DNA from: Algoriphagus lutimaris | GTDB lineage: Bacteria; Bacteroidota; Bacteroidia; Cytophagales; Cyclobacteriaceae | DNA length: 64,000 nucleotides | Assembly (NCBI RefSeq): GCF_017051705.1 | Contig: NZ_JAFIDJ010000001.1 | Span: 62,001 to 126,000, forward strand | Reading direction: 5' to 3' | Shown here: positions 54,409 to 63,674 of the stretch, one piece after another | How the letters are laid out: the number at the start of each line of letters is the position of its first letter | Numbering within the stretch: the first letter of the stretch is position 1 | Translations under genes and position numbers: made by a program | The notes under the pieces: model-generated | Database searches by the model: none | The model's input: the letters and a program-made list of their open reading frames with translations, nothing else | What the model was told of the DNA's origin: nothing

Positions 54409-56616
54409 TTAGTGGATTACTTTTTTTGTTTCCGTTACGATCTTCTTTCCATCTTCATATTTGATTTCCTTTTTTACCTCAACTCGTTCAGCCATTTCGG
54501 ATCCATGAGAAACATGGCTAATATGTGGGGCAATTACCAATGCCACGATAGACATCAATTTGATCAAGATATTCATGGAAGGTCCAGAAGTGTCTTTAAA
54601 GGGATCTCCTACTGTATCACCAGTAACAGAAGCTTTATGTGGTTCTGACTTCTTGTAGTACATTTCGCCATCTATTTCCACTCCTTTTTCAAAGGATTTT
54701 TTTGCATTATCCCATGCACCACCTGCATTGGATTGAAACATTCCCATCAAGACTCCTGAAACAGTTACCCCCGCAAGTAAACCTCCCAACACCTCGGGTC
54801 CAAAAGTAAAACCTACAATAATGGGAGTGATCAAGGCGATAGCTCCTGGGGCAATCATTTCACGAATTGAAGCTTTTGTGGAGATTTCAACACATTTGTC
54901 ATATTCAGGCTTGGCTTTATACTCCATGATTCCAGGGATTTCCCTAAACTGACGTCGAACTTCATTCACCATGTCCATGGCTGCTCTACCTACTGCTGCA
55001 ATGGCGAGAGAGGAGAAAATAAATGGAATCATACCTCCGACAAATAGTCCTGCCAATACATCCGCTTTATAGATGTCAATGGCATCAATTCCTGCTATTC
55101 CAACAAATGCTGCAAATAATGCCAGAGATGTCAATGCTGCTGAAGCAATAGCAAAGCCTTTTCCGGTAGCTGCTGTGGTATTTCCTACCGCATCTAAAAT
55201 ATCTGTTCTACCTCTTACCTCTTCTGGAAGCTGGCTCATTTCCGCAATTCCTCCTGCATTATCCGCAATGGGTCCAAATGCATCAATCGCTAACTGCATG
55301 GCCGTAGTCGCCATCATTCCTGCAGCTGCAATCGCTACTCCGTACAATCCTGCAAATTCATAAGCTCCATAGATTCCACCTGCTAATACCAAAATCGGTA
55401 ATACAGTGGATTCCATTCCTACAGATAAACCACCGATTATGTTGGTAGCATGTCCTGTAGCGGATTGCTTTATAATCGATAGGACAGGTCTTTTACCCAT
55501 CGCAGTATAATACTCTGTAATAATACTCATCAAAGTTCCCACGATCAATCCCAGAATGATGGCATAAAATACGTCCATGTTCGAAAACGCATACCCTCTG
55601 ATCGAAAGGGTTTCAGGTAGCATGTATTGTACAACAAAGAAAGAAGCAATACCCGTAAAGATGATAGAAGACCAGTTTCCCATGTTCAATGCTTTTTGAA
55701 CATCTCCTTTTTCATCTTTAATGGTTACGAATGCCATTCCTATGATAGAAAACACAATTCCCAATCCCGCAAGAATCATGGGTAGTAGAATAGGTGCTAT
55801 TCCTCCAAATGCATCTACAGAAACAATTTCTCTTCCCAATACCATGGTGGCTAGGATAGTAGCTACGTAGGATCCAAAAAGGTCAGCTCCCATACCTGCT
55901 ACATCGCCTACATTATCTCCCACATTATCTGCAATGGTGGCCGGATTTCTCACATCATCTTCAGGGATTCCTGCTTCAACTTTTCCAACTAAATCTGCAC
56001 CTACGTCAGCGGCTTTGGTATAGATACCACCGCCTACTCTTGCAAATAATGCGATGGATTCTGCACCCAAAGAGAAGCCTGCCAATACTTCCAAGGCTTT
56101 TTCCATCTCGACGCCATTTACTCCAGCTCCTACGCTCTGTACGTAAAGATGGTAGAAGAAAATGAACAGAGAGCCTAAACCCAATACGGCAAGTCCTGCA
56201 ACTCCAAGTCCCATGACAGATCCTCCTGTAAATGACACTTTGAGGGCTTGCTTCAGGCTTGTTCTTGCAGCCTGAGTAGTTCGTACATTCGCTTTGGTAG
56301 CGATACGCATTCCGATAAATCCTGCAAAAGCCGAGAAAAATGCACCAATTAAAAATGAAATGGCAATGACCGGGCTTGATGTTTCTACCATCATTCCTGA
56401 CCATCCTAATAGAATCATGGCAATGACGGCAAAGTAACCAAGTACCTTCCATTCTGCCCTAAGAAATGCCATGGCACCATCGGCGATATAGCCCGCCAGT
56501 TCCACCATGGTCTTATCTCCTGTTTCTTGTTTCGTAACCCAGGAAGATTTTATGGCCATTACGATGAGACCTAAAATTCCCAATGCTGGGACCAAATAAA
56601 TAAGCGCGTTTTCCAT
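54409..56616 (-). CDS. hppA: K+-stimulated membrane-bound pyrophosphatase (proton or sodium pump)
   Basis: A 735-residue, about 16-helix pump. The active site is [20 protein letters not shown] followed by [20 protein letters not shown], with the partner loop [10 protein letters not shown]. At [13 protein letters not shown], Ala (not Lys) at the K+-dependence position and Gly three residues later indicate the K+-stimulated class. Pyrophosphate hydrolysis drives ion efflux across the inner membrane. The start at 56616 is supported by the promoter at 56661-56690, since the frame start at 56655 coincides with the expected transcription start. A ~35-residue charged tail ([20 protein letters not shown]) extends past the last helix. 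Confidence 0.94.
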
Positions 56617-56660
56617 ATAAATTCGTAATACTAAATTGGATTTATTGATTATCAACTGAG

Positions 56661-56835: not shown

Positions 56836-59214
56836 ATGAAAAGTGAAAAAATGCTTTCCGATTTAAAGTTTAATTCATTTTTAGACTTTAATCTGCTTTT
56901 TGAACAGTGGGAAAAGCTAAGTGATAAAGAGAATCCAAGTACTTGTTTGTATCAAGATTATTTGACACGAATGAAGGATTATCCTGATCTGAGTAAATTT
57001 CCTATCGAGAGAGAAGATGTATTGAAAGATAAAAATAAGCTAGGTTTTAGTTTGATCTTAAGTTCACTTTTCCCTTTATCCGGTCAGGAAGAAAATAAAA
57101 TATTAGGTTTATCTAAGCCATTCGATTACAACCCGATTTATTGTACCCCTGCCTTCAAAAAGGAATTTTTGACCCCAGAAGGAGAAGTAAAGATCCCTTA
57201 CAATCTCAATGAAGAGCGGATTTTTTTTCATAAAATGCTGCATGTCTATGCATTGATCCTCGACCAACTTTATGGGATCAAAATCAATGAGATTTACCCC
57301 CTAGTCTTTAAGGTTCCCAGTTCTGAAGGCTTTACTAGGCATTATCAAATCCAAATCAATTCGCAGTTTGTAAAGGTAGTTCCTAAGATCCCTCTTCCTG
57401 AAATTAAGCGAAAGTCAGAATTTTGTTCCAGTAATAAGCCCAACCATTACGATGTGGAAAAATGGATGGAGTTGTTGCCATTGGAGATGTTTGAATTCCA
57501 CGGCTTTATTTTGATGGAGGCTCAGGACCTTACCGTCGCTCAAAGTGTAGCTACTTTAAATGAAGCTGTATTAAACCAAGAACAAGTAACAGCGGAGTCT
57601 TTTATGGAAATTGTAGAAGATTCCGTCAAAAGCTTATTAGGAAAGCCCGGAATAAAAGTAGGACTGGCGGTTTTACAAACCATCAATGGGAGGATAGTGA
57701 TGACTGAAAGCAGACTTGCTTATAGTTATTTGATCAAACAATTGTGTGGAGAAGGTTGTGAAAAAAGTTACCAGGCTGTATTGGAGTTGTTGTCAACAGT
57801 TGAAAAACCGATTTTTCTGAATGATTTGGATGTTGCGAGAGAAAAATTGCCGTTGGGTGTGAAGTTGAATGAGATGGGAGTCAGGGAAATTATTTTGTAC
57901 CCTTTGAGGCATAATGGAGATTTAGTAGGGGTTTTGGAAGTTTGTTCTTTTCAGGAGCAGACTTTTGATCCATTGATGTTAGTGACTTTAGATTATTTAG
58001 CCCCCTCGCTTTCTTTGGCTCTAAACAGGCAAGCTGAGGTGTTAGACCAAAAAATCAAAAGCATCATACGGAAAAATTTCACCGCAATACATCCTGTAGT
58101 AGAGTGGAAGTTTGACGAGATCGCATTGGATTATGTGTTAGAGGAAGAGGAAGGTGGAAGTCCTGAAATTAAACCCATTGTTTTTAACGATGTCTATCCG
58201 TTGTATGCGGCTGTGGATGTAAAAAATTCATCAGTAGAACGGAACAGTGCCATTCAAGATGATTTTCAAATACAGTTGGCCTTAGCAAAAAAGGTCTTGC
58301 GAAAGGCTAAAGAAGTTCATTTTCTTCCATTGATGGATCGATTGATAGATCAAATTGAGGAGTTCGAAAAGCGAATTAACTTTATGTTGGTAAGTGATGA
58401 AGAGGTGAAAATCACAGACTTTTTCCATTATGATTTAGAGCCTGCATTTAACTACCTAAAAAATAATTTTGAAGACCTTGAAGTGGATGTAAATACCTAC
58501 TTCAAAGCTTTGGATGCTAAACTGGGAGTGGTTAGTACCAATAGGAATTCCTTCGAAAAAAGTCTTTCCAAAATAAACCAAGTAATTGGTAACTATCTCG
58601 AAAAAGAGGAAGCCAAGGTGCAGCAAATGTTCCCCCATTATTTTGAAAAATTCAAAACTGATGGGATAGAGTATAATATTTACATTGGACAGTCTTTGGT
58701 CAAAGACCAGAAGTATGATCCGCTGTATTTAAAGAATCTAAGGCTTTGGCAATTACAGACCTTAATCGAAACGGTTCATTTGGTTGCCCATCAAAAGAAC
58801 GAATTGGAGTATCCATTGGATGTGACTCAAATGATTTTGGCACACAGTACACCGATCTCAATCAGTTTTAGGTTGGACGAACGAAAATTTGATGTAGAGG
58901 GAGCTTACAACATTCGATACGAAATTATCAAAAAGCGCATTGATAAGGCTTTGGTAAAAGATTCAAGAGAACGCTTGAACCAGCTTGGAAAAATTGCGAT
59001 AGTTTATTCTCAGGAAAAAGAGGCTAGAGAGTACTTGGACTTTATCAAGTATCTACAGAATAAGAATTTGTTGACCAAAGAAGTGGAAGAGCTAGAGTTG
59101 GAAGAAATGCAAGGGGTATATGGGATGAAAGCGATTCGGGTCACAGTCAAAGAAAGGACTCATGAGAATCAGGAGATTTTCTCAAAACTGATAGCCGAAA
59201 GAAAAGAAGGGTAA
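56836..59214 (+). CDS. GAF-domain protein of unknown role
   Basis: A 792-residue cytoplasmic protein. The N-terminal ~250 residues (LYQDYLTRMKDYPDLSKFPI, KMLHVYALILDQLYGIKINE) match nothing I can name. Residues about 260-400 are GAF-like (SVKSLLGKPGIKVGLAVLQ, VREIILYPLRHNGDLVGVLE, FDPLMLVTLDYLAPSLSLAL). The C-terminal ~350 residues are helical with acidic stretches and a cluster of ELELEEMQ. No kinase, cyclase or DNA-binding motif is seen. Its last 33 bases overlap the convergent 59182-62823 gene, so coupling of the two mRNAs is possible. Confidence 0.78.
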   Translation: MKSEKMLSDLKFNSFLDFNLLFEQWEKLSDKENPSTCLYQDYLTRMKDYPDLSKFPIEREDVLKDKNKLGFSLILSSLFPLSGQEENKILGLSKPFDYNPIYCTPAFKKEFLTPEGEVKIPYNLNEERIFFHKMLHVYALILDQLYGIKINEIYPLVFKVPSSEGFTRHYQIQINSQFVKVVPKIPLPEIKRKSEFCSSNKPNHYDVEKWMELLPLEMFEFHGFILMEAQDLTVAQSVATLNEAVLNQEQVTAESFMEIVEDSVKSLLGKPGIKVGLAVLQTINGRIVMTESRLAYSYLIKQLCGEGCEKSYQAVLELLSTVEKPIFLNDLDVAREKLPLGVKLNEMGVREIILYPLRHNGDLVGVLEVCSFQEQTFDPLMLVTLDYLAPSLSLALNRQAEVLDQKIKSIIRKNFTAIHPVVEWKFDEIALDYVLEEEEGGSPEIKPIVFNDVYPLYAAVDVKNSSVERNSAIQDDFQIQLALAKKVLRKAKEVHFLPLMDRLIDQIEEFEKRINFMLVSDEEVKITDFFHYDLEPAFNYLKNNFEDLEVDVNTYFKALDAKLGVVSTNRNSFEKSLSKINQVIGNYLEKEEAKVQQMFPHYFEKFKTDGIEYNIYIGQSLVKDQKYDPLYLKNLRLWQLQTLIETVHLVAHQKNELEYPLDVTQMILAHSTPISISFRLDERKFDVEGAYNIRYEIIKKRIDKALVKDSRERLNQLGKIAIVYSQEKEAREYLDFIKYLQNKNLLTKEVEELELEEMQGVYGMKAIRVTVKERTHENQEIFSKLIAERKEG

Positions 59215-62200
59215 GGTTTCTTCGTTATTAAAACCTAGAGAAATGGTAGCAACGATTTGGTTTAATGGTGCGAGCCATACTCCCAAGCCAAAGGTATTGT
59301 GCCATTTATTAGATTTTTCGTTTTCCATCCAAACTCTACCAATGTCATGAAACCCTAACACGCCTACAGTAGCTGGTAAAATGTAAGTTTTTAGGTTGAA
59401 CACCTGAATCCTCACTTCCGTGTTATTGTAGGCTACTGCTTTTCCATTGAATCGGTAGCGGCGAAATCCTCTTAAATTGTCCATTCCTCCTAGGATTTGA
59501 CCTTGAAAATAGGCGTAATTTCCCCAGTTTTTTCCGGCTCCGAATCGAGTGGCCCATACCATTCTGGAGGGGTAATTGAATGACCAATACAAAGCCAATT
59601 CAGTGTCAAACCGAGTGAAGTTATTGGAAGCCTTATTTAAACCCCAGCTTCGTTTAAGCTGATTTTGAAAAAGGAACCCTCGGGTAGGTATATGCTCATT
59701 ATCCCTTTTGTCGAAATTGACCTGAGCAGTTACCCCTGAATAGAACTTGGCTTGATCAATATCCTCCTGGTCTAAACCAGACTCAGGACTTGTTATAAAT
59801 TTTCCTTCATTATCATCCGGATCAAATCGATACACCTGATAATGTGGTCCAATGGTTAAGGTGCCACTTTCACCAAGGTTAGTTTGAAGCCCAGTGGATA
59901 ATTCATACCAGCTAAAACGTGCTCGGTAATAGCGGATCTCAAAATTTTCAGGGTTGTAAGTGGATTCATTTCCTTGGCCGAAAAAGTTGAAGGCATAGTC
60001 TGGGGCTTTTATATCTGCTTTCCATACTAAATCCCAGTTATTTAAAACATCGACCGCATGACCTTCATAGTCCAGATTAAAGGCATTGGTTTTAAAAGCC
60101 CAGTTCCCTTTTAAGCTTTGTCTGATGGCATAAGGCTCTTTTTTAAACCCCTGCTTTTCCCACAAAACTCCAGCGCCAAAGAATATCCCGTCATCTTTAT
60201 TGAATTCCACAGATGCTAGAGGCATCACTTTGTCATACTTAAATTCTTTTCTATTGTACTCCAATAAATTGGGTTTATAGGCTTTGATTATTTTGGACGA
60301 AGATCCGGATTGGATTTGAGTTTTTTCATTTTTTGACTGATAGATAAGCTGGGAAGTTTTCTTCAAATCAGCATCATCCTCATATTCCTTATCACCTTTA
60401 CCTGGGATGACTCTAATTTTAATATCTCCAGGACCTTCTCCTTCAAAAATAAATTTGTCTTCTCCTTCCAGACCATAGAGTCGGATTTCTTTTGTTTCAT
60501 CAGGGAGGAATGTTCGGTCAAAAATTTTCTGCTTTATGTTGCCTGATTTACTAATCTTGCGAACTTCCACTTTTACATTTCCGTCTGGATAATGTTTGAC
60601 TTCAAACTCCTCGTTTTTATTGGAACCTACTACATTGACATTTAATGCTAAAAAATGGTAGTATTCCAGAGATTTTTCTTTGAGCCAGGTTTTTCTGTGT
60701 AGCAGTTTTGCTTTTATTTCAACCCCGTCATGTTTTTTGACCGTGTCAGGCCATGAATCCAATGCATGATCGATTTCTTCTTCCGTTAGTTTAGGAAGCA
60801 GGTTGTCCAGTACTTTTTCCCAATCCTTCTGGTCCAGATTATTCAAAAAGCTACGGTCAAAATACCTGCCGTTAAACATGAACCCATTTACATTTTTCAG
60901 TTCATAACCGAAACCTTGGAATTTAGGGTTCAACCAAGGTCTACTGGCCAGTTTTGGAAAGAAGCCTTCATTCAGGAAGAATGCCTGATCACGATCTCTT
61001 GGCATGGGTTTAAATTCCCAATCACCTTTATTTTTCTCTCCAACCCATCTCCATTGATCATCATGTCTGTCCCAATCCGCAATCCAAAGGTCAAAAATCC
61101 TTGCTTTGAGCACTTCCTTTTGATTTACCTGGTTGTCATTATCCTTCTTGATTTTTTTCAACATCTTGTCGGTGCTGAAAAACTCAATGTCTTTCGGGGC
61201 ATCCGAATGGCCAATTTCCCGCTCTTCGAAGAGATAGAGTTGGTCCGCAAAGGTTTTTCGATAAACTCCTAGCAAGGGGTCATCAGGTAGATACACAATA
61301 GAGGGATTGGTATGAATCACTCCAACTGCATGGGCTAGCCTGGCAACGGCCATAGCAGCGTAGGGATGAGAGGATGAGATTTGATCTTGAACAACTTCCT
61401 TGGCTATGGTCTGCCTCAGCGGAACGGAAAGTGCATTTTCAGGATATTTGTTGATAGACCTCAATACAAATTCCTTTCCCTCGGGATTTTCTAAGCGAAG
61501 TGAACGGGTTTGCATGCCACCACCTCTTTTGGTGATCTTGAGGCCTCCTTTTTCCTGAGTCAAATCCAAAGAAGGAAAGGTAACTGGGATTGCCCAGGTC
61601 TCCCGATAGTTAGTGCCTAAAAATGCCTGATACGCCTTGCCATGCAGGTACTGTAAGGAAATGGGTTCGGTTACTTCTTTCGGAAGGTTTCTATCAAATA
61701 ATTGTAACTCTGCAGGGGTATCTGCAAATGGCTGTATCAGTTCAGATTCATATAAAGGAGCTTCTTTTAAAGGGTCAAAAAAAGTGAGCTTTACCTGATG
61801 GTTTTCATAAAAATCCAAGGTGGCATACCCTTGTTTGGGATAGGTGAATTCCGCTGGGTTATTTTTTTTGATATAGGTGTTTTTCGCTCCTGCCCCGCTA
61901 ACTACATAATGGGTATTTCCCTCTTTGGTATAAAAAAGGCCATGTTCATGACCAGCAACTTGAATGACATTGGGATGTGAATCAAAAAGCCGATCCAGTG
62001 CTTTGATCATGGCTTCATACTTAGGATGAGGGATGTCCTGAATATCTCCAAACCAAGATCTATACAATGGATAGATTGAACCGACTACAGGTAAAGGAAT
62101 ATACAGGTTTTCTGAGGCTGCTGTTAAAGGGAAAAGATGGTCTTTCCAGCTATATGCCCCATTATGCGGTCCATAAGCGCGCATGGGATGGTGCATGGCA

Positions 62201-62823
62201 AATACAATGGTTTTATCTTGATTCTCTTCCAGGGTATAGGCCAGTGAAGCTAAAATTTCCTCTTCGGTTTTGAATTCACAATCGGATTCAACGCCTGGCT
62301 TGTCTTTGGAATGCAGCCACCATTGGCTATCAAAGGCAATCAGCAATGTTTCTGAATCAAGTAGTGTTAGGTAAGGACCAGGGCAACCTCCAGAAGGGAC
62401 TAAATTGACTTTTTCAGTAGGGTAATTGTCTTCAATATATTCTTCAGCATACAGTATTCGATTCCAACCTTCAGACTTTCCCTTTTTCCAATCATGATTT
62501 CCTGGGACCATCCAGATTTTCCCGGAAATAGAAGAAAATAAATCAAGCTGAGTTTTCAATATGGCTTCTGCTTCTGGTCGATCTTCATCACTAATCGATG
62601 GCATTCCTAATGGATAAATATTATCTCCTAGGTAGAGGATATGAGTGGGTAAATTCGGTTCCGAAAGCGCCTTTTGTTTTACTTTTTCAACAACTGGATG
62701 ATGTTTGTTTTCTAATTCCCCTGCATCCCCAATTAAATAAAGCCTGAACTTTAAGTCAGCTTCTTGGGCATTGGTACTAACTACCCAGAAAAGAGTAAGG
62801 ATGTAGAGAAACAGCTTTTTCAT
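59182..62823 (-). CDS. Metallophosphoesterase / kinase-like / BamA-type barrel fusion
   Basis: A 1213-residue exported protein (signal KLFLYILTLFWVVSTNAQ). Residues 25-340 are a calcineurin-like phosphoesterase: D33 (LIGDAG), D67-N68 (YLGDNIY), GNHD at 108-111, H211-H212 and GHEH at 291-294. Residues about 430-640 look like a kinase-like fold (HipA/CotH/PI-kinase type): a Gly-rich hairpin KRGGGMQTRSLRL, VLRSINK, then DWDRHDDQW (583-591) as catalytic loop and PMPRDRDQAFF (607-616) as metal loop. Residues ~810-1213 hold Tyr/Phe-rich strands ending FFSFGYQF, an outer-membrane surface-antigen (Omp85/BamA-like) barrel. The kinase part is inferred by eye; the outer two are well supported. It is co-transcribed after the SdiA-regulated-like gene (4-base overlap). 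Confidence 0.85.
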   Translation of the reverse strand: MKKLFLYILTLFWVVSTNAQEADLKFRLYLIGDAGELENKHHPVVEKVKQKALSEPNLPTHILYLGDNIYPLGMPSISDEDRPEAEAILKTQLDLFSSISGKIWMVPGNHDWKKGKSEGWNRILYAEEYIEDNYPTEKVNLVPSGGCPGPYLTLLDSETLLIAFDSQWWLHSKDKPGVESDCEFKTEEEILASLAYTLEENQDKTIVFAMHHPMRAYGPHNGAYSWKDHLFPLTAASENLYIPLPVVGSIYPLYRSWFGDIQDIPHPKYEAMIKALDRLFDSHPNVIQVAGHEHGLFYTKEGNTHYVVSGAGAKNTYIKKNNPAEFTYPKQGYATLDFYENHQVKLTFFDPLKEAPLYESELIQPFADTPAELQLFDRNLPKEVTEPISLQYLHGKAYQAFLGTNYRETWAIPVTFPSLDLTQEKGGLKITKRGGGMQTRSLRLENPEGKEFVLRSINKYPENALSVPLRQTIAKEVVQDQISSSHPYAAMAVARLAHAVGVIHTNPSIVYLPDDPLLGVYRKTFADQLYLFEEREIGHSDAPKDIEFFSTDKMLKKIKKDNDNQVNQKEVLKARIFDLWIADWDRHDDQWRWVGEKNKGDWEFKPMPRDRDQAFFLNEGFFPKLASRPWLNPKFQGFGYELKNVNGFMFNGRYFDRSFLNNLDQKDWEKVLDNLLPKLTEEEIDHALDSWPDTVKKHDGVEIKAKLLHRKTWLKEKSLEYYHFLALNVNVVGSNKNEEFEVKHYPDGNVKVEVRKISKSGNIKQKIFDRTFLPDETKEIRLYGLEGEDKFIFEGEGPGDIKIRVIPGKGDKEYEDDADLKKTSQLIYQSKNEKTQIQSGSSSKIIKAYKPNLLEYNRKEFKYDKVMPLASVEFNKDDGIFFGAGVLWEKQGFKKEPYAIRQSLKGNWAFKTNAFNLDYEGHAVDVLNNWDLVWKADIKAPDYAFNFFGQGNESTYNPENFEIRYYRARFSWYELSTGLQTNLGESGTLTIGPHYQVYRFDPDDNEGKFITSPESGLDQEDIDQAKFYSGVTAQVNFDKRDNEHIPTRGFLFQNQLKRSWGLNKASNNFTRFDTELALYWSFNYPSRMVWATRFGAGKNWGNYAYFQGQILGGMDNLRGFRRYRFNGKAVAYNNTEVRIQVFNLKTYILPATVGVLGFHDIGRVWMENEKSNKWHNTFGLGVWLAPLNQIVATISLGFNNEETLPFFSFGYQF

Positions 62824-63674
62824 GGCTGATAAGGGAATATAAGAATATTGGGTCGGCCATCCCTGGCTTCATTCGAAATGAAAAGTGTCCCATCTTTGGA
62901 AAAAGTAATCCCTTCCGGTTGCTTGAAAAGAGCCGGGTTTAAATGATGAAAGCTAACAGGGTTAAATTCTTGATCTAATACCATAAGCCAGTGGTCACTT
63001 GAAGATAAGAGGTAGTATTTTTTTTCGATGGGATGGAAAGCAATAGCAGATGGTTGCATTTTGACTTTCTTAAAATCATCTTCCTTTAATAATGGTTCCA
63101 ATTGCTCATTCTTAAGAATAAAATTGGCATCCTCTTCAAAACTCATAGACTCTAAATTGAAAGCAAAAACTGAGGATTTATTGGAGCTTTTATCCCAACT
63201 ACAGACTTTGCAAAAAATCCAAATGAGAGGTTCGTCCGCAGATTTGATCAATGCCTCAAAATCTCGTTTTTCTTGAATAGGGAATTTATGGATAGTCGTG
63301 TTACTATATTCCGTTAATGGTTCCTCTACTTGATAGAGGTTTCCATTACTTTGAAGGACCCAGGCTTCATTGCCCATGAGCATGATATCTTCAATGTCTT
63401 TGTTTTTGGCAAACTTTTTTTTATCAGTGATTTTGCCTGAGTTAGGATTTAATTCAAAAATAACGGAAGACTCATCTTCAATCGCCCAAAGGGTTTGTTC
63501 ATTGATCCATTCCAGCCCAGAGATTTCCTCCAAATCATTGGAGAGGTTGAATTTTTCCACATTTTCCAAAGAGTAATGGGAGGGAAAACTGTAATAATCT
63601 GCCCGCTTATCCTGTGAATAACATTGACTTAAAAGCAGAAAGCAAAAAATGGATATATTAGATATTTGGTTCAT
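62820..63674 (-). CDS. SdiA-regulated-domain-like exported propeller protein
   Basis: A 284-residue protein with signal SNISIFCFLLLSQCYS. It contains LEEISGLEWINEQTLWAIED, IEDIMLMGNEAWVLQSNGNL, KVKMQPSAIAFHPIEKKYYL and FKQPEGITFSKDGTLFISNE, the pattern of the SdiA-regulated/phytase-like propeller (YjiK family), where the E-G-I/L and S-N-E blocks are Ca2+/substrate residues. It starts the operon with the large phosphoesterase fusion (its stop overlaps that ATG by 4 bases). A phosphate- or phosphoester-linked role fits both but is inference. Confidence 0.84.
   Translation of the reverse strand: MNQISNISIFCFLLLSQCYSQDKRADYYSFPSHYSLENVEKFNLSNDLEEISGLEWINEQTLWAIEDESSVIFELNPNSGKITDKKKFAKNKDIEDIMLMGNEAWVLQSNGNLYQVEEPLTEYSNTTIHKFPIQEKRDFEALIKSADEPLIWIFCKVCSWDKSSNKSSVFAFNLESMSFEEDANFILKNEQLEPLLKEDDFKKVKMQPSAIAFHPIEKKYYLLSSSDHWLMVLDQEFNPVSFHHLNPALFKQPEGITFSKDGTLFISNEARDGRPNILIFPYQP

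Follow-up and report, generated by a model that had tools for sequence, protein, structure and literature searches.

We analysed a window of 64,000 nucleotides from Algoriphagus lutimaris (contig NZ_JAFIDJ010000001.1, positions 62,001 to 126,000) and identified in it a gene which, in our judgement, rather probably encodes a secreted, outer-membrane-anchored phosphotransferase with an atypical kinase fold. The gene is one single open reading frame (ORF) of 1213 residues at 59182-62823 on the minus strand, in which a predicted kinase-like domain lies between a phosphoesterase and a barrel. The fold class and the barrel type are both known, but the family is new. Its members are outer-membrane proteins, widespread in Bacteroidota, whose kinase-like domain keeps its catalytic residues, apparently lies outside the cytoplasm and is often fused to a phosphatase-like domain.

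Pfam search of the whole protein found Metallophos at residues 27-226 (E 4.7e-6) and Omp85 at 967-1186 (E 5.9e-13), with no Pfam domain between the two. The phosphoesterase and the C-terminal barrel that an earlier reading of the sequence (the original prediction) had placed on one polypeptide are thus both present, and all the motifs it named stand at the residues given for them: GDAG at 32, GDNIY at 66, GNHD at 108, GHEH at 291, VLRSINK at 453, DRH at 585 with Q at 590, and DRD at 610. The phosphoesterase scored 27.6 bits with PF00149 (cut-off 21.5), carries the metal-site residues D33, D67, N109, H110, H211, H292 and H294, and matched GAP50 (3tgh, E 1.1e-10). The barrel scored 49.4 bits with PF01103 (cut-off 24); its model has 16 long strands with NLRGF (1116-1120) between strands 11 and 12, and it matched the BamA and TamA barrels. 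An RG[FY] motif in loop 6 is typical of the Omp85 superfamily, to which domain, strand number and motif assign this barrel. An NCBIfam scan of the protein named the barrel alone, with a score under its cut-off.

The fold of the middle domain was assigned from a structure model, not from sequence searches; Pfam, NCBIfam and PDB sequence searches did not by themselves reveal this domain. The predicted structure is a confident model in which the elements follow one another as in a kinase: a Gly-rich hairpin, a basic strand, a catalytic loop behind a helix, a hairpin and a metal-binding Asp, the order of a protein-kinase-like fold. Two structure comparisons against the PDB gave, among the 50 matches listed in each, nearly all kinases or kinase-fold phosphotransferases by title; the list from VIA-align 2 held Foldseek-passed entries alone, and families missing there are not thereby ruled out. 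Sequence identity was 8-14% in the structural matches listed (the PI4K-II, CtkA, HipA and FAM20 group). Model and matches to solved kinase structures support the prediction of an atypical protein-kinase-like fold similar to those of CotH, PI4K, HipA and FAM20, as the original prediction had proposed for this region.

Several results weigh against this assignment. The best Foldseek matches had low TM-scores (for CtkA 0.51-0.53 by target, with a root-mean-square deviation of about 8). PDB searches by sequence, with the protein or with a profile as the query, gave no kinase match; the best matches of the protein were purple acid phosphatases (E values of at least 0.077), which concern the phosphoesterase part, and the best E value with the profile was 0.73. 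The original prediction had likened the region to HipA, CotH and PI-kinase-like families and named FAM20 among the folds to compare. In a profile-profile comparison, CotH matched weakly (probability 17.6%, score 36.9), HipA reached 8.9% with a score of 31.6, and the controls, two unrelated families (n=2), scored 17.0 and 24.7; FAM20 was not listed for the query by Pfam. In addition, most kinases have Lys where R455 stands and Asn where Q590 stands.

Conservation was counted on 73 aligned sequences from 70 loci, of which 30 were returned by the whole-protein search and 40 were picked from its list of matches for diversity, with their neighbours unseen; the 80 loci from a motif scan (DRHxDQW[RK]W) were excluded. 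The putative catalytic and metal-binding residues of kinase type were nearly invariant in the family. D578 was found in 73/73 sequences, R455, K459 and R586 each in 70/73, D585 in 67/73, H587 in 66/73, Q590 in 67/73 (with N in 4 more), and D610 and D612 each in 69/73, so that conservation of the named residues exceeds chance; D585, Q590, D610 and D612, of which the original prediction asked whether they are invariant, are nearly so. All six of R455, K459, D585, Q590, D610 and D612 were identical in 64/73. Against the proposed activity, at least one of the six was altered in the other 9/73, heavily in five: two rows had N at 590 alone, two had Gly at 585 together with N at 590, and the remaining five (L058, L060, L061, the first copy of L059 and the second copy of L040) had two to six positions altered.

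These counts bear on an alternative that we regard as unlikely, namely that the middle is a pseudokinase-type binding domain which holds a phosphorylated ligand or nucleotide for the phosphoesterase or the barrel and transfers nothing. The unusual R455 and Q590, the near loss of the motif in the five rows just named, and a probable extracytoplasmic site with no known ATP would all suit such a domain. It does not sit well with the 64/73 sequences that keep all six positions, nor with the 21/26 rows without any phosphoesterase that keep the motif, since phosphoesterase-free proteins would have nothing to present the ligand to. Two loci contain tandem kinase-barrel copies (L040:6537-9122 and L059:1276-3915), one copy being without catalytic residues and its partner intact. 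A likeness to this is the inactive FAM20A that is paired with the active FAM20C.

The kinase site was better kept than the phosphoesterase centre, as the counts on the 73 rows indicate. An aligned phosphoesterase was present in 44/73 rows and lacking in 29/73. Three of these 29 are not true losses, which leaves 26: L004 is interrupted by an internal TAG, so that only the ORF after this stop was aligned, and the kinase genes of L049 and L050 have the phosphoesterase as a separate gene, all three being scored without it. All seven metal-site residues were kept in 35/44 phosphoesterase rows and at least one was altered in 9/44. The kinase motif was intact in 7/9 rows with an altered phosphoesterase site and in 24/29 rows without an aligned phosphoesterase, or 21/26 after removal of L004, L049 and L050, all intact. 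The earlier idea of opposite activities on one protein is therefore supported only in part: the two domains are fused in many members, but the phosphoesterase is not obligatory (26/73 without it, 9/44 with an altered site).

The whole-protein search gave matches in 202/395 sampled Bacteroidota genomes, of which weak ones may be the barrel or the phosphoesterase alone, and a profile of residues 375-870 found the family in 54/148 genomes with a cut-off of E 1e-10, including one weak match (3.5e-12). In the GTDB species collection, a scan by motif picked out at least 593 related stretches; the best 80 of these were taken and were by title nearly all from Bacteroidota, with one from Chlorobiota and one from a Thalassovita metagenome-assembled genome (contamination unchecked). 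Relatives in a plasmid collection were named 'hypothetical protein' in 4/5 cases and had no annotation in 1/5. A kinase region was present in 150 of the 151 loci, which gave 160 kinase-region ORFs in total. Of these ORFs, 107 also encode phosphoesterase and barrel, 47 have a barrel but no detected phosphoesterase, and in 6 no barrel was detected. In two of these six (L049 and L050) the kinase-like domain, the phosphoesterase and the barrel are consecutive separate genes; two (L122 and L128) are kinase-only proteins of Rufibacter; in L099 the kinase ORF is a fragment, and the barrel lies on another fragment behind it; and in L136 it is truncated by the end of the locus. A FastTree tree gave 10 changes for the phosphoesterase and 15 for PPK1, a frequent neighbour, some absences in these counts being artefacts because flank lengths were uneven and loci short.

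Read by eye, the two split loci show lipoprotein-like signals at the start of both the kinase gene and the phosphoesterase gene and a Sec-like signal at the start of the barrel gene, and the N-terminus of the Rufibacter kinase-only proteins has positive charge and a hydrophobic stretch. These signals suggest that the kinase domain acts outside the cytoplasm. By the usual Omp85 topology, the soluble domains would lie on the periplasmic face; the original prediction had spoken of a surface protein, but where soluble domains precede a 16-strand Omp85 barrel, the periplasm is predicted instead.

If the protein is a phosphotransferase, its signal peptide would export it, and the Omp85 barrel would enter the outer membrane and keep the soluble domains on the periplasmic side. 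The Gly-rich hairpin together with R455 and K459 would grip the phosphates of the donor, D585 would activate the acceptor, and Q590 with D610 and D612 would bind metal. Phosphate might then be passed to an envelope protein, glycan or lipid, and the phosphoesterase, where present and intact, may trim or reverse the product. The main obstacle to this reading is the phosphate donor: the periplasm is not known to contain ATP, and no phosphate donor is known outside the bacterial cytoplasm. Secreted kinases are established, with FAM20 in eukaryotes and CotH for spores, but this lack of a known donor means that phosphorylation outside the bacterial cytoplasm has received little study. With an outer-membrane family that is common in Bacteroidota and keeps its kinase residues, the question of the donor becomes testable.

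The gene neighbourhood offers a first donor candidate in the recurrent neighbour PPK1. Of the 70 loci selected without use of the motif, 16 contained PPK1 vs 0.16 expected by density (assuming 1.1 PPK1 copies per 4.2 Mb), and these 16 span seven families and several gene orders; among all 150 kinase loci the number was 34. In whole genomes, PPK1 lay within 20 kb of the family gene in at least 17/54, that is, 15 by coordinates plus G080 and G138 from locus data. Twelve of these 17 genomes are in one family, at a distance of about 12-15 kb, and a binomial estimate on this closeness took a 1% chance per genome and ignored kinship. Co-occurrence at the genome level is uninformative because PPK1 is present in 135/148 genomes. 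No PPK1 was found in 60 CotH and HipA control loci (226 kb), a weak control in which about 0.06 would be expected, and the density expectation of 0.16 was therefore relied on. Against a general link, the genome of the window itself has PPK1 about 550 kb off on the same contig. On the strength of this linkage, though partial, we propose polyphosphate as the non-ATP donor to consider first. That the protein is a non-ATP envelope kinase, taking phosphate from envelope polyphosphate made by the nearby PPK1, with the phosphoesterase removing the product, is a specific version to which we attach little likelihood; if true, phosphorylation outside the cytoplasm would in this system be driven by polyphosphate. 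Alternatively, PPK1 could be co-regulated with stress or phosphate genes. Two genomes (G140:C30, locus L045, and G070:C10) have two PPK1 genes each, of which one (701 and 684 amino acids) is near the kinase-barrel gene and is maybe a dedicated paralogue.

The gene directly upstream overlaps the barrel-kinase gene by 4 bases. The original prediction had coupled the latter to a phytase-like propeller gene; the coupling agrees with this overlap, but the best Pfam match of the propeller was SdiA-regulated (E 4e-12) and Phytase-like appeared only under the cut-off. Among 156 scorable kinase-region ORFs (4 further ones are at locus ends), 58 had a propeller directly upstream and in the same direction, and in 18 of these the two overlap by 4 bases; the propeller was present in 49/104 ORFs with phosphoesterase, 9/46 without, and 0/6 without barrel. 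One could read the weak Phytase-like similarity, together with the GAP50 match and the sub-threshold purple-acid-phosphatase matches of the phosphoesterase (E values of 0.077 or more), as parts of a phosphate-scavenging machine, in which phosphoesterase and propeller free phosphate, the barrel imports the product and the middle domain handles the substrate. We consider this improbable, as phosphoesterase and propeller are both often missing where kinase region and barrel stay, and Omp85 barrels are not known to import small molecules.

The pairing of phosphoesterase and Omp85 is already in print: Heinz and Lithgow (2014) defined a 'Metallo' subfamily of Omp85 proteins that carry PF00149, a domain they termed a metalloprotease (PMC4104836). 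This subfamily, with PF00149 N-terminal to the barrel, probably covers the present proteins; the main text of that paper, unlike the present analysis, reads PF00149 as a metalloprotease and does not contain the word 'kinase'. As roles in assembly or secretion were proposed there for the Metallo subfamily, and the barrel matches BamA and TamA, the protein might be an assembly or secretion factor whose barrel works like BamA, TamA or PlpD and whose soluble domains either reach the surface through it or work on substrates as they pass. This we hold to be very improbable, since it leaves the kept kinase residues unexplained and no POTRA match was found in the Pfam scan of the protein, in which the beta domain at 731-855 was not searched alone.

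Among other known systems, PlpD-type patatin-Omp85 proteins likewise join an enzyme to an Omp85 barrel, but have a patatin and one POTRA in place of the phosphoesterase, kinase fold and beta domain. According to PMC7821199, CotH is an atypical kinase that is related to Fam20C and is inactive as the D228Q variant. Unlike CotH proteins, the query has no Pfam match to PF08757 up to E 1, and 1/73 members matched it at E 0.025, without reaching the cut-off. HipA (PF07804) likewise gave no match to the query up to E 1 and was absent among the 25/40 weak families listed for the members. For FAM20 (PF06702), Fam20C was unlisted for the query and was found for 1/73 members at E 0.0014, again without reaching the cut-off. 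When the 60 CotH and HipA loci were searched with the phosphoesterase, kinase and barrel parts of the window's protein, none was found. In the open-licence PMC literature, judged from titles and opening lines, no paper was recognised as describing this kinase domain, and PMC10281475 treats a different protein, OMP76. What had been presented as a candidate undescribed system is thus so for the kinase domain in that literature, but not for the phosphoesterase-Omp85 pairing.

Table 1. Features of the kinase-barrel gene and its upstream neighbour in the window
Feature	Position	Strand	Basis and remarks
Whole gene, 1213 residues	59182..62823	(-)	ORF list, Pfam, models; signal peptide, phosphoesterase, kinase-fold domain, beta domain and Omp85 barrel
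Probable Sec signal peptide, residues 1-20	62764..62823	(-)	By eye from sequence
Calcineurin-like phosphoesterase, residues 21-365	61729..62763	(-)	Pfam PF00149; GAP50 3tgh match; metal-site residues
Predicted kinase-fold domain, residues ~395-730	60634..61641	(-)	
Gly-rich loop G434-G436	61516..61524	(-)	G434 in 67/73, G435 in 68/73 aligned sequences
R455 to K459 of VLRSINK	61447..61461	(-)	Each 70/73; model strand 451-456
Putative catalytic loop D585-R-H-D-D-Q590	61054..61071	(-)	Alignment; in the model, coil after helix 568-580
Probable metal site D610-R-D612	60988..60996	(-)	Each 69/73; after model hairpin 591-608
Beta-rich domain, residues ~731-855, between kinase fold and barrel	60259..60633	(-)	Alignment, models
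Omp85 barrel, residues ~865-1213	59185..60231	(-)	Pfam PF01103, model strands, BamA and TamA barrel matches
Upstream SdiA-regulated propeller gene	62820..63674	(-)	ORF list, Pfam

The beta domain has G-x-G-x-D-like stretches, with D789 invariant in the 73 sequences, and shows a likeness to an RTX-like beta-roll by eye only. Neighbour families were obtained as single-linkage BLAST clusters, each named from one representative. Within 4 kb, the clusters found were an HD-PycTM protein (69 loci), a class III cyclase (31), PPK1 (31), a GAF protein (31), which is convergent in the window, a histidine-kinase-like protein (16, by eye), a PAP2-like protein (13, by eye) and a member of the histidine phosphatase superfamily taken for SixA (12). 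The HD and PycTM (Pycsar effector) protein adjoins 69/151 loci, for example at L003:35-1333 (-), and in L001 lies upstream of the propeller; with the class III cyclase sometimes close, it may form a Pycsar-like pair or be a housekeeping module. A short CotH gene was found a few kb from the kinase-barrel gene in G070:C10 and G019:C15, which belong to one family. In the window itself, 54409-56655 (-) has, by eye only, the look of a membrane-bound ion-pumping pyrophosphatase.

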